DNA of 39,693 bases from Planctomycetota bacterium (GTDB lineage: Bacteria; Planctomycetota; Planctomycetia; Gemmatales; Gemmataceae). Shown here in pieces: positions 18,375 through 32,494 of this stretch. The position numbers and the translations under genes are program-made. How positions within the stretch are numbered: position 1 is the stretch's first letter; each line of letters opens with the position of its first letter. The DNA lies in contig JACPPF010000061.1 in the NCBI GenBank assembly GCA_016191165.1, positions 1-39,693 of the forward strand, written 5' to 3'. The notes under the pieces were generated by a model that saw nothing but the letters and a program-made list of their open reading frames with translations, searched no databases and was not told the origin of the DNA.

Positions 18375-18452
18375 ACCAGCCCGGAGCGCAAGCGACGGGG
18401 CCGGTTTGCTTGCGGCCGTCGTATGCCCCCGTCGTTTGCGCTCCGGGCTGGT
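18375..18452. repeat. Palindromic repeat between thiSG and udk
   Basis: Two 26-base arms (18375-18400 and 18427-18452) pair with one mismatch around a 26-base loop. The left arm is identical in all 26 bases to the left arm of the element inside the PPDK-like gene (31093-31118). Its last base is the first base of the thiSG stop codon complement, so the element begins exactly where that gene ends. Confidence 0.9.
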
Positions 18453-19522
18453 TAGTGCCCCATCCGCCCCGCCATCGGGCTGGACGCGGTGGCATACAGT
18501 TTTTTCGGAATGCGGCCCGCCAGGTACGCGAGCCGGCCGGCGTCGCAAGCATATTTCATGGCATACGCCATCCGCAAGGGATCCTGCGCCGACGCGATGC
18601 CGGTGTTGAGCAAAACGCCGTCGCAACCCAGCTCCATGGCGATTGCGACATCGCTGGCGGTGCCGACGCCGGCGTCGATGATGACGGGGTAATCGGGATC
18701 GCCGTCTTTCAGGTATTCGAGGATGATGCGGATGTTGTTCGGGTTTAGCACGCCCTGCCCGGATCCGATCGGGCTGCCCGCGGGCATGACGCTGGTCGCG
18801 CCGGCCTCTTTCAATCGCTTGGCCATGATCGGGTCATCGCTGGTGTAGACGAGCACCTGAAAGCCTTCTTTCACTAGCGTCTGGGTCGCCTCCAGGGTTG
18901 CGACGGGATCGGGCAGCAGCGTCTTCGGGTCGGCCAGGCATTCGAGCTTCACCCACTCCGCGCCGGGGTTGCCCAGGTTCGTCAGCAACTCACGCGCGAT
19001 GCGGGCATGGCGGACAGCATCCTCCGCCGAAAAACAGCCCGCAGTGTTGGGTAGGATGGTCAGCTTCTTCAGATCGAGGAAATCGAGGATGCTCTTGCCT
19101 TCTTTATCGATCAGTCGTTCGCGCCGCACCGCGACGGTGGTGGCTTCACAGGCGCTCGCGGCGAGGCAATCGCGCATCAGATCGTACGTCTTGTACTTAC
19201 CAGTGCCCGTGATGAGGCGGGAGGTGAAGGTGAATTTGCCGACCTTGAGCGGCTTGTCGTTAGCCGGACGCGCCAGCGACGGTTCGGGTGCTCCGTCGCT
19301 GGCGCGTCCGGCTAACCCGGAGCCGCCGCCGACCAGGGTGACGATTTCGACGGCATCGCCCGCTTGCAGCCGATGCTGCGGATGTTGCGCTTTCGGCACG
19401 ACTTCGCGATTGACCTCGACGGCGATCTTCCGCGGATCGAGGCCGATATGCTCAATCAACTCGGTGACGGTCAAGGGTTCAGGCAGCGAATTGCGTTCGC
19501 CATTTAACGTGATTTCGATCAT
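18452..19522 (-). CDS. thiG: ThiS-ThiG fusion: sulfur carrier and thiazole synthase
   Basis: Residues 1-69 form a ThiS domain (MIEITLNGE... ending V-T-L-V-G-G-G-S-G). Residues about 90-345 form ThiG: it begins [18 protein letters not shown], has E-W-V-K-L-E with the lysine expected to bind deoxyxylulose phosphate, and ends with the phosphate-binding part G-V-G-T-A-S-D and the L-L-N-T-G-I-A motif. ThiG builds the thiazole of thiamin using sulfur from the ThiS C-terminal Gly-Gly. Here the Gly-Gly is internal and followed by a linker of about 20 residues encoded by a perfect palindrome. Similar fusions are known in other bacteria. Whether the carrier is freed by cleavage is not visible. I saw no TPP riboswitch upstream. 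Confidence 0.93.
19260..19315. repeat. Palindromic element in frame at the ThiS/ThiG junction
   Basis: Two perfect 23-base arms (19260-19282 and 19293-19315) flank a 10-base loop. On the coding strand they read L-A-G-R-A-S-D-G and P-S-L-A-R-P-A-N, the linker just after the ThiS Gly-Gly. The core (AGCCGGACGCGCCAGCGACGG) is a variant of the family at 18375. Confidence 0.85.
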
Positions 19523-20163: not shown

Positions 20164-20225
20164 GTAGGTCAGGCTTTCCAGCCTGACGGGTAACCCGAAA
20201 AGTCAGGCTGGAAAGCCTGACCTAC
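20164..20225. repeat. Perfect 24-base inverted repeat upstream of nagB
   Basis: The arms 20164-20187 and 20202-20225 are exact reverse complements around a 14-base loop. Each arm is itself nearly palindromic (CAGGCTTTCCAGCCTG). This is a different family from the GCGCAAGCGAC elements. It ends 28 bases before the nagB start, in a gap with no other feature, and could affect its expression or end upstream transcripts. Confidence 0.9.
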
Positions 20226-29219: not shown

Positions 29220-29294
29220 CCCGCTCACCCGCTTGCGGTTTCGCGCTCCCGCGCGCTTGCCATGCCCCAAGCCGCTTTCCCGACGGACCCACCC

Positions 29295-31886
29295 ATGACG
29301 CAGCGCTGGATCTACTTCTTCGGCAACCATCAGGCGGACGGCTCAGGCGAGATCAAGCACCTCATCGGCGGCAAGGGCGCGAGCCTTGCCGATATGACCC
29401 GCGCCGGCCTCAATGTCCCGCCAGGCTTCACGATCTCGGCTGAATGCTGCGACTACTACTACAAGCACGGCAAAACCTGGCCGGACGGCCTCGAAGCCGA
29501 ACTGCGAACCAGCCTGCAACGCCTGGAAGACCTCGCCGGGCGGAAATTCGGCGTCGGCGCCCAGCCCCTTTTGGTCGCGGTTCGTTCTGGAGCCGCCCAA
29601 TCGATGCCGGGGATGATGGACACGCTGCTCAACGTCGGCGATCCGTCGCAGGGCGATGCGTGGACTGCCCTCAAGACCGCCATTGATGCCGTCTTTGAAT
29701 CCTGGCACAGCGAGCGGGCCCTCGCCTACCGCAAGCATCATCAGATCAACGATCTGCTGGGCACCGCCGTCACCGTGCAGACGATGTGCCCGGCTGAGGT
29801 CGCGGGCATCCTGTTCACCGCCAACCCGGTCAACGAGGCCGACGAAATCATCATGGAAGCGGCCCCTGGCCTGGGCGAGGCGATCGTGCTGGGCAAGGTG
29901 ACGCCCGACCGCTTTGTGCTCGACAAGGGGTCGTTGGCCTTCAAGGAACGCGTTCTCGCTGATCCGGAAGCCGGGGCCTCGCTTGCGGATGGGCAAATCC
30001 AGGAACTCGCTCAACTCGGCCTGCGCGTCGAGACGCACTTCCAGTCGCCGTGTGATATCGAGTGGGCACTTTTTGGCGGCCAGTTTTTTCTCCTGCAATC
30101 GCGGCCCATCCGGTTCAAGGGAAGCGCTGGCACGCCGATTAGCCTGGTCGACCAGGAAAACGCGCGGGCCAGGGAAGTTGCCGCACTCAAGGCGATGGCG
30201 GAACCGACCGGCACCGTGTGGGCGCGTTTCAACCTCTCGGAAATCCTGCCCGAGCCGACGCCGATGACGTGGTCGATCGTCCGGCAGTTCATGTCGGGCA
30301 AAGGCGGGTTCGGGCAGATGTATCGCGACCTGGGCTTCGACCCCGACCCCGCGCTTGACGAGATCGGCATGTTCGACCTCATCTGCGGGAGGCCCTACTG
30401 CAACCTGAGCCGGGAGCCGCGGATGCAGTACAAGAATTTGCCCTTTGAGCACAACTTCGCGTTCCTGAAAAAGAATCCTGACAAGGCGATCTATCCGCAG
30501 GCGACATTCAACCCGCGCCGGGCGGGGCTGATGTTCTTCTTCAAGGTTCCGCTGTTGTTTCTGAAGATGTGGTGGTCGCAGATCAAGCAGCAACAGTTGA
30601 TCCGCACCTTCGTGGACGATTTCACGCAGCACATTGTGCCGAACTATCTGGCGCTCGTCGAGAAAGCCGAGCGGGTGAACCTGGGGGCGCTTTCGAGCGA
30701 GGAAGTCGTGCGGCACCTGAACGAGGCGATCCAGCTCACGCTGTTCGACTTCGCCAGGCACAGTTTGAAGCCGACTGCCCTGGCGGCGCTGATGCTCGCC
30801 AATCTCGAACGCGCCTTCGCGGCCCGCTTGCAGCCGGTGGACATGAAACCCGCCGAGGCGATGGCGATCGGCCTGCAAAAGGCGCAGACCGCCCTGCGCG
30901 AGTTGATGATGGGCGCGCATCCCGACGAGCACACCGACCTCGCCGCGGGCATTCGCGCTTTGCGCGAGGGCCGCTTGTCAAAAGACGAATTCCTGAAGCG
31001 TTTCGGCCACCGCGGCAGCCAGGAGATGGAGTTGAGCAAGCCACGCTGGGCCGAAGACCACACGGTCCTGGATCGCATGACGCAAAGCGCCAACCAGCCC
31101 GGAGCGCAAGCGACGGGGAGCGCCGTCGCGGCAACCCCGTCGCTTGCGCGCCGGGCTGGTGTGGACGACGCGTGGCAAATGGCCTGGTTCAAACTCGCCG
31201 ACGAAGCACGACTCTTGCCCAATCAACGCCCTGCCGTCGAAGCGGAGCTGCGCCGTTTGCAAACCTACATGGGATTGCGCGAAACCGCCAAGCATCACCT
31301 GATGCGCGGTTACGCATTGATTCGTCGAGGACTCCTTGAATTGGATAGGCGTTATCAACTTGACGGCGGAGTTTTTGATTTGACGATAACTGACCTGGCA
31401 GCCCTGGCGAGGCTTCCAGAGGGAAAAACGCCGACGGAACACTTGGAGACCGTTGACAAAAACCGACGTCAACGCGCGATCGCGCTGAGCCTGACGGCGC
31501 CGACCGTTCTCTTCAGTGACGATCTTAACGCCATCGGTCGCCAAGCGGCGTTTGAGGGCGCAGGCGTCCTGCAAGGCACGCCGCTGTCGGCCGGCATCGT
31601 CGAAGGCACGGCCTGGGTGCTCGACGACGTCGCCGGCGCCGAGATGCCGGTCGAACCGTACATCCTCGTGTGCCCGTCCACCGATCCGGCCTGGGTCCCG
31701 CTCTTCGTGCAAGCGCGTGGCCTCGTGATGGAGACGGGCGGCATGTTGTCGCACGGGGCCATCGTCGCGCGCGAGTTCGGCCTGCCCGCGGTCGCCGGCA
31801 TCGCGAATGTGCATCGCCGCATCAAGACCGGGCAACGCTTGCGTATGGACGGCGGGACTGGAGCCGTTCAGATCGTGGCGGGGTGA
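29295..31886 (+). CDS. PPDK/PEP-synthase-like phosphotransferase (rifampin-phosphotransferase-type architecture)
   Basis: From the ATG at 29295 this is an 863-residue protein. The N-terminal ATP-grasp domain is PPDK-like: Y-F-F-G-N, L-I-G-G-K-G-A-S-L-A-D-M, V-R-S-G-A-A-Q-S-M-P-G-M-M-D-T and Q-S-R-P-I. A middle domain of about 450 residues matches no PPDK part I know. The C-terminal swivelling domain has G-G-M-L-S-H-G-A-I-V-A-R-E-F-G-L-P-A-V with phosphohistidine His820. The PEP/pyruvate TIM barrel of true PPDK is missing. Length, domain order and histidine position resemble rifampin phosphotransferase, which transfers the beta-phosphate of ATP to its substrate; the substrate here is unknown. 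A palindrome-encoded linker interrupts the middle domain near residues 600-622. ATG 29262 is an alternative start. Confidence 0.88.
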   Translation: MTQRWIYFFGNHQADGSGEIKHLIGGKGASLADMTRAGLNVPPGFTISAECCDYYYKHGKTWPDGLEAELRTSLQRLEDLAGRKFGVGAQPLLVAVRSGAAQSMPGMMDTLLNVGDPSQGDAWTALKTAIDAVFESWHSERALAYRKHHQINDLLGTAVTVQTMCPAEVAGILFTANPVNEADEIIMEAAPGLGEAIVLGKVTPDRFVLDKGSLAFKERVLADPEAGASLADGQIQELAQLGLRVETHFQSPCDIEWALFGGQFFLLQSRPIRFKGSAGTPISLVDQENARAREVAALKAMAEPTGTVWARFNLSEILPEPTPMTWSIVRQFMSGKGGFGQMYRDLGFDPDPALDEIGMFDLICGRPYCNLSREPRMQYKNLPFEHNFAFLKKNPDKAIYPQATFNPRRAGLMFFFKVPLLFLKMWWSQIKQQQLIRTFVDDFTQHIVPNYLALVEKAERVNLGALSSEEVVRHLNEAIQLTLFDFARHSLKPTALAALMLANLERAFAARLQPVDMKPAEAMAIGLQKAQTALRELMMGAHPDEHTDLAAGIRALREGRLSKDEFLKRFGHRGSQEMELSKPRWAEDHTVLDRMTQSANQPGAQATGSAVAATPSLARRAGVDDAWQMAWFKLADEARLLPNQRPAVEAELRRLQTYMGLRETAKHHLMRGYALIRRGLLELDRRYQLDGGVFDLTITDLAALARLPEGKTPTEHLETVDKNRRQRAIALSLTAPTVLFSDDLNAIGRQAAFEGAGVLQGTPLSAGIVEGTAWVLDDVAGAEMPVEPYILVCPSTDPAWVPLFVQARGLVMETGGMLSHGAIVAREFGLPAVAGIANVHRRIKTGQRLRMDGGTGAVQIVAG
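31093..31160. repeat. Palindromic element in frame inside the PPDK-like gene
   Basis: Two 26-base arms (31093-31118 and 31135-31160) pair with one mismatch. The left arm equals that of 18375-18400 base for base. In the coding frame it reads Q-P-G-A-Q-A-T-G-S ... A-T-P-S-L-A-R-R-A-G, a low-complexity insertion between M-T-Q-S-A-N and V-D-D-A-W-Q. Confidence 0.9.
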
Positions 31887-32425: not shown

Positions 32426-32440
32426 AGAAACCCTGGTTTA

Positions 32441-32478
32441 CGTTTAGCGCTCGCGCGGCGCCTGGCGGGCGCTAAACG
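32441..32478. repeat. Palindrome upstream of the ABC exporter operon
   Basis: CGTTTAGCGCTCG (32441-32453) pairs with CGGGCGCTAAACG (32466-32478), with one wobble position and a 12-base loop. No T-run follows. It ends 16 bases before the exporter ATPase start and is a third sequence type of palindrome in this window. Confidence 0.6.
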
Positions 32479-32494
32479 CAAGCAGGAGTGGTCC

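Follow-up and report, generated by a model that had tools for sequence, protein, structure and literature searches.

How a palindrome came to lie in frame inside a dikinase gene, and by what means it arrived there, is the question raised by positions 31093–31160 of the window, the 39,693-nucleotide stretch of Gemmataceae (Planctomycetota) DNA analyzed here. The element is a 68 bp inverted repeat with a left arm on the forward strand (31093–31118, A(CCAG)CCCGGAGCGCAAGCGACGGGG) and an inverted right arm on the opposite strand (31135–31160) that differs from it by one mismatch. The 26 nt arms are complementary at 25/26 positions (96%) and stand 16 nt apart, around a spacer (31119–31134) that differs from copy to copy. 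Folded as DNA, the element reaches −47.5 kcal/mol compared with −26.4 ± 2.5 kcal/mol for shuffled sequences (z −8.6, 0/200). It encodes residues 611–633 (NQPGAQATGSAVAATPSLARRAG) of an 874-residue ORF on the forward strand (29262–31886) and falls between its two Pfam domains, PPDK_N and PEP-utilizers, whose order resembles a PEP synthase or rifampin-phosphotransferase-like architecture. A codon model finds coding signal in the frame of the palindrome on either flank. The left arm is an exact copy of the arm at 18375–18400, and the 23 nt core occurs four times in the window with up to three mismatches, where 0.00 occurrences are expected. The first-pass annotation had described a palindrome with exactly these arms, an identical left arm in the intergenic element at 18375–18400, and the in-frame addition of about 23 residues to a PPDK-like enzyme, and all of these observations are borne out.

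The fine structure of the arm defines the type of element. A single arm forms a small hairpin in which an unpaired 5' CCAG foot is followed by CCCG-(GA)-GC-GCAA-GC-(GA)-CGGG, with a GCAA loop, a central GA/GA bulge and a folding energy of −5.1 kcal/mol (DNA parameters). The bulge resembles that of the E. coli REP, which needs mismatched bases there for cleavage by TnpAREP (PMC8266576). The upstream flanks favor pyrimidines and place an A before CCAG in 26/26 distinct cases, while T follows the final CTGG in 21/22 copies; these constant bases extend the symmetric unit to ACCAG...CTGGT. The spacer differs between copies in both length and sequence, save among those with common longer flanks. Two inverted REPs, each with its unpaired CCAG tetranucleotide at the 5' foot, form the larger hairpin, which is present in high copy number. 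A tetranucleotide foot and a short mismatched stem, paired head to head, constitute the plan of a REPIN, and the dikinase segment is thus a REPIN, a pair of inverted REPs with CCAG feet. Membership in the GTAG-tagged REP superfamily, whose tag is GTAG or GTGG, is ruled out by the CCAG foot. Several REPINs of this type (L018, L024, L027, C122:112000 and others) are enclosed in a longer repeated unit, possibly composite or MITE-like in nature, that has ggtcggtattaactta and tggggatattttt on its flanks.

The arm is abundant in the genome. Palindromes were placed in families by consensus, with family A having the CCAG foot and its sister family B a CTAG foot. A genome search for the arm, one of the checks suggested at first pass, yields 59 exact copies of its 15 nt core in 7.2 Mb and none of the reversed control, and a 24 nt consensus of the two sister families has 327 matches with up to three mismatches, against one for the control. 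Among other genomes the exact A arm (at most one mismatch) is patchy, present in 14/95 genomes of the taxonomic family and 14/392 of the phylum. The window itself contains a second REPIN of family A (18375–18452) between a uridine-kinase-like gene and thiSG, which overlaps the 5' edge of the upstream ORF in its longest possible form. A related family with TTAGCCGGACGCGCCAGCGACGG arms has a copy at 19249–19326, in frame in the ThiS-ThiG fusion ORF (18452–19522, minus strand), where it inserts about 20 extra residues between ThiS and ThiG. In addition, the window holds two paired REPs of the CTAG sister family (23–95, CTAGCCCGAAGCGTAAGCGAGGGA), a perfect 24 bp inverted repeat whose foot is a genuine GTAG (20164–20225, GTAGGTCAGGCTTTCCAGCCTGAC) and a GTTTAGCGC...GCGCTAAAC palindrome (32438–32481) that has a NIPSNAP-like gene on one side and an ABC transporter gene on the other. 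Repeats similar to the last of these are widespread in the genome.

A search of the genome with Pfam Y1_Tnp finds 11 places, one of which provides a candidate enzyme for family A. This is an intact 150-residue Y1 (HUH) transposase ORF, a RAYT (contig C106:4377–4826; minus strand of L069, 1426–1878), with the motif HVHV and a C-terminal YVLERQ, the HUH and Y----Q of class 3 TnpA. REPINs of family A lie on both sides of it (L069 1319–1382 and 1893–1958) and carry one identical 12 nt spacer; the gene and its flanking REPINs are a REPtron. Five further Y1 genes are each flanked by their own different palindrome family, of the GTAG-GTCAGGC, CCAG-CCCCACGC, CTAG-CCCGAAGCG, CGGCGGGCG and GTTTAGCCGC types. 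Three of these families are present in the window too; the Y1 gene on contig C14 (L065) is flanked by the same GTAG repeat as is found at 20164–20225, and that of L071 by repeats like the one at 32438–32481. The RAYT of the CTAG family (contig C3, L068) has one stop in its Y1 match and is apparently broken. Next to the C106 RAYT, a molybdopterin-oxidoreductase-like ORF (L069:1978–3210, minus strand) contains GRKPSPPTPLPKGEGRLAGPRGE, which looks like the translation of a CTCCCC-type palindrome. Among named Planctomycetota, relatives of the C106 RAYT often have AGCCCGNAGCGCAAGCGA-type palindromes on their flanks; most of these genomes are MAGs labelled Planctomycetaceae, and the rest include Pirellulaceae and Phycisphaerae. 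In the family, 59/95 genomes have a RAYT match. Genomes G084 and G054 have A-type arms but distant RAYT matches only; the arm and close relatives of the RAYT thus do not always occur together, a point against the RAYT as the agent of spread.

Copies inside and outside genes were compared, as the first-pass annotation had also proposed, over 1.07 of the 7.2 Mb, a sample chosen around element matches that shows context and not genome density; genes were called there with a trained codon model (86% coding). In frame and with coding signal on both flanks are 8/38 A-type dimers but 0/38 B-type dimers (P 0.005). A ninth A-type dimer (C92), with one flank scoring −24 and probably a miscalled start, was dropped from this count. 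When single arms are included, 19/58 A sites lie inside genes compared with 76% of random positions: A copies are depleted in genes, yet far from absent. Apart from the dikinase, the hosts are RarA/MgsA, IleS, CinA, a TIGR03960 (B12-)radical-SAM protein, a WD40/PSCyt1 protein, a DUF7133 protein and a Ser/Thr kinase, and the related family seen in ThiS-ThiG also lies in frame in an AroD-AroE-like fusion. IleS (L090:3676–7239, minus strand) has two different palindromic inserts, at residues 235–267 and 793–813. The genome yielded a single full-length IleS, and as this one carries the A-type insert, the insert must be tolerated in a presumably essential enzyme.

Reading frames offer a partial explanation for which copies are found in genes. 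Arms of family A are free of stop codons in all six frames, each B arm has one of three frames closed, and palindromes with at least four open frames are placed in genes in 14/73 cases compared with 4/82 (P 0.01). Neisseria elements show a similar contrast of open and closed repeat forms (PMC2229807). Families H and K break this rule, having mostly open frames and in-gene copies in 0/6 and 0/12 cases, so open frames are at most part of the placement story. In-gene copies are read most often in the QPGAQATG frame, a preference that by a rough estimate is not significant. In-gene copies are fewer in other genomes (3/29 in G036 and 3/30 in G044), and the studied genome may be extreme in this respect.

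Orthologues reveal what else occupies these sites. Alignment of the dikinase, another check put forward at first pass, finds the segment absent from 29 orthologues compared; it is not conserved among them, nor is the arm missing from the rest of the genome, the two outcomes that the first-pass annotation had regarded as contrary to its view. The linker region is variable in all orthologues, and its occupants are the A type here, a CTCCCC type in G054 and G030, and a CAGATT repeat in G036. The ThiSG insert at 19249–19326 is absent from 16 orthologues compared, one of which has a different, partly palindromic insert at the site; in ThiSG of the same genus (86–91% identity), GGGA runs directly into PADKPL. 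The ThiSG linker of G030 (L235) contains GGAGCGCGGAGCGC repeats encoding GGARSAEGGARSAE, part palindromic and part tandem. RarA has the A type here, CTCCCC-type sequence in G054 and G030 and a third inverted repeat in G085, and the remaining orthologues are empty or have short unrelated sequence at the insertion site. CinA, tried as a fresh case, has TGCCGCTTGCGGCTTGGCAG in the same loop in G083 and a CTCCCC-type insert in G030. When RarA and CinA are set against solved structures, their inserts lie where the alignment is poor or has gaps.

In IleS, the A-type REPIN is common only to the studied genome (G000) and G054, whose copy is slightly shorter, keeps the frame and largely retains the hairpin. 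The same loop in G083 and G084 has AAGCCCAGGGACG-GC-CGTCCCTGGGCTT instead, a palindrome with 28 copies in G083, 63 in G084, 8 in the studied genome and 0 in G054. Unrelated high-copy palindromes clearly occupy the same loop in IleS orthologues. This bears on a question posed for Rickettsia in PMC3767692, namely whether the loci shared by Rickettsia palindromic elements (RPEs) are hot spots for different elements or hold one diverged insert. The IleS loop has two occupants, each from a separate family that is present in high copy number in its own genome, and this supports hot spots as the answer in this group. Five other repeats, in five IleS orthologues, all lie at residues 245–264 and overlap another palindrome pair at residues 235–267 of the studied genome. 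When all inverted repeats with arms of at least 12 in orthologues of IleS, RarA, CinA, PPDK and ThiSG are considered, 8/15 lie within 12 residues of the studied genome's insertion compared with 0.85 expected (P 3e-7), under a null of uniform placement that is too generous, as all indels favor loops. Without the shared IleS insert and with G083 and G084 merged, the count is 6/13 (P 4e-5). Given this generous null, the clustering shows shared permissive loops and not targeting.

The explanation that we consider very probable is that the dikinase segment is a REPIN spread by a RAYT, and that within genes only frame-keeping copies in tolerant loops or linkers survive. The REPIN would be a non-autonomous element, most likely copied via single-stranded DNA by the small HUH/Y1 transposase (RAYT, class 3 TnpA) at C106:4377–4826; from the motifs and flanks of that gene, transposition by it is the most likely route. 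New copies would be mostly intergenic, or purged from genes. Those in genes would survive in loops or interdomain linkers, provided that their net length preserves the frame, with the stop-free CCAG arms, open in six frames, aiding survival and the host proteins keeping their function with about 20 extra flexible residues. We infer that such copies persist by neutrality. Because few permissive loops tolerate inserts, unrelated palindrome families would accumulate there across species.

The same pattern might arise if the transposases recognized features of the loops, such as short hairpins or pyrimidine-A junctions, with hot spots reflecting targeting more than survival. The presence of at least five families in the same IleS loops, the pyrimidines favored upstream and the junction A in 26/26 flanks are in keeping with this, though that A may be the element's own. 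The loops of different species, however, have no obvious common sequence and are used by families with different feet, the copies are mostly intergenic, and survivorship predicts an identical pattern; we regard targeting as unlikely. A selected role, either as a functional linker or as an mRNA hairpin that acts as a regulatory or folding pause element, could explain why G000 and G054, two species, share the IleS insert and have kept most of its hairpin, but it is made improbable by sister species that have unrelated peptides or hairpins, or nothing, at the site.

The first-pass annotation had likened the element to RPEs. That likeness stands as far as a dispersed palindrome in frame in a conserved protein is concerned, and is not supported as kinship. 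A true RPE relative would be a palindrome spreading into genes by its own RAYT-independent route, a reading that is quite improbable even though RPEs too form in-frame insertions of 20–30 residues at solvent-exposed sites of conserved enzymes, with several palindrome families in one genome (PMC3767692, PMC2229807). The unit here measures 64–68 bp and not 100–150 bp, it consists of two REP hairpins with CCAG feet, and the genome has a cognate Y1 transposase flanked by it. It also has no unpaired terminal CGTC tag of the kind reported for R. conorii elements (PMC3733652); CGTC here lies inside the paired arm. CCAG-footed REP pairs together with a flanked Y1 transposase point to REP/RAYT kinship rather than to RPEs. 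A palindrome arising by chance in an ordinary variable linker, or an artefact of assembly, would suit the variability of the dikinase linker in all orthologues, but has a negligible probability: the arm recurs identically dozens of times elsewhere, where zero copies are expected, the fold has a z of −8.6, and many independent genes and genomes show likewise.

The REPIN described here ties in-gene palindromes to an identifiable transposase. It also has a consequence for annotation: where proteins of planctomycetes contain stretches like PGAQATG, PSLALRAG, CAPGW, SASDG and PLPSGEG, these are best read as translated mobile DNA. A broader proposal, which we advance tentatively as somewhat less than an even bet, is that proteins of this planctomycete family offer permanent landing sites (two loops of IleS and single loops of RarA, CinA, the dikinase and ThiSG) to which unrelated RAYT-linked palindromes come time and again, and that at least one REPIN family shed its stops (CTAG to CCAG), with genes becoming its habitat. 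If so, REPINs would keep supplying proteins with new loops.

A comparison with known systems places these elements. Like REPIN/BIME elements and their RAYT (TnpAREP), family A has inverted REPs with a tetranucleotide foot and a small bulged hairpin (PMC3116915, PMC6006769, PMC8266576), a high copy number and one flanked Y1 gene per family; it differs in its foot, CCAG (CTAG in the sister family) instead of GTAG or GTGG, and in its many copies in frame in genes. REPs as such were reported earlier for Planctomycetes, and class 3 TnpA with atypical REP-like structures occurs mainly there (PMC6006769). By its motifs and planctomycete setting, the C106 RAYT appears to belong with the class 3 TnpA that Quentin et al. 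describe (2018, PMC6006769), with HUH and Y----Q, atypical flanking palindromes and high copy number in common, a likeness drawn from the published description. The foot reported for class 3, CnGA (PMC6006769), has no clean counterpart in CCAG; CGGA occurs inside the A arm, without a clear foot position, and atypical palindromes flank the C106 RAYT.

We know of no RAYT described for RPEs. Like the A REPIN, which inserts in frame into conserved ORFs, RPE-1 to RPE-7 lie in frame in conserved enzymes, and in both cases orthologues often have inserts at shared loci (PMC3767692, PMC2229807). As RPEs are described, elements of 100–150 bp in Rickettsia and Wolbachia that are CGTC-tagged in R. conorii (PMC3733652), the A REPIN is set apart by length, sequence, tag and host. 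In-frame REPs and RPEs are already established (PMC2229807, PMC3767692, PMC3733652), the former in several bacteria including Opitutus terrae of the related phylum Verrucomicrobia. According to Di Nocera et al. (2013, PMC3733652), the in-gene GTAG/CGTC REPs of O. terrae, R. conorii and others are dimers encoding 20–30 residues, like the A REPIN, that lie in DNA-repair and tRNA-related proteins and are presumed harmless in linkers or loops. They belong to other families with another foot, and occupancy of orthologues by unrelated families, seen here, does not appear to be described for them there. As far as searches of the open literature show, what is new is the REPIN family with its RAYT in this planctomycete family, and the occupation of the same orthologue loop by unrelated high-copy palindromes.
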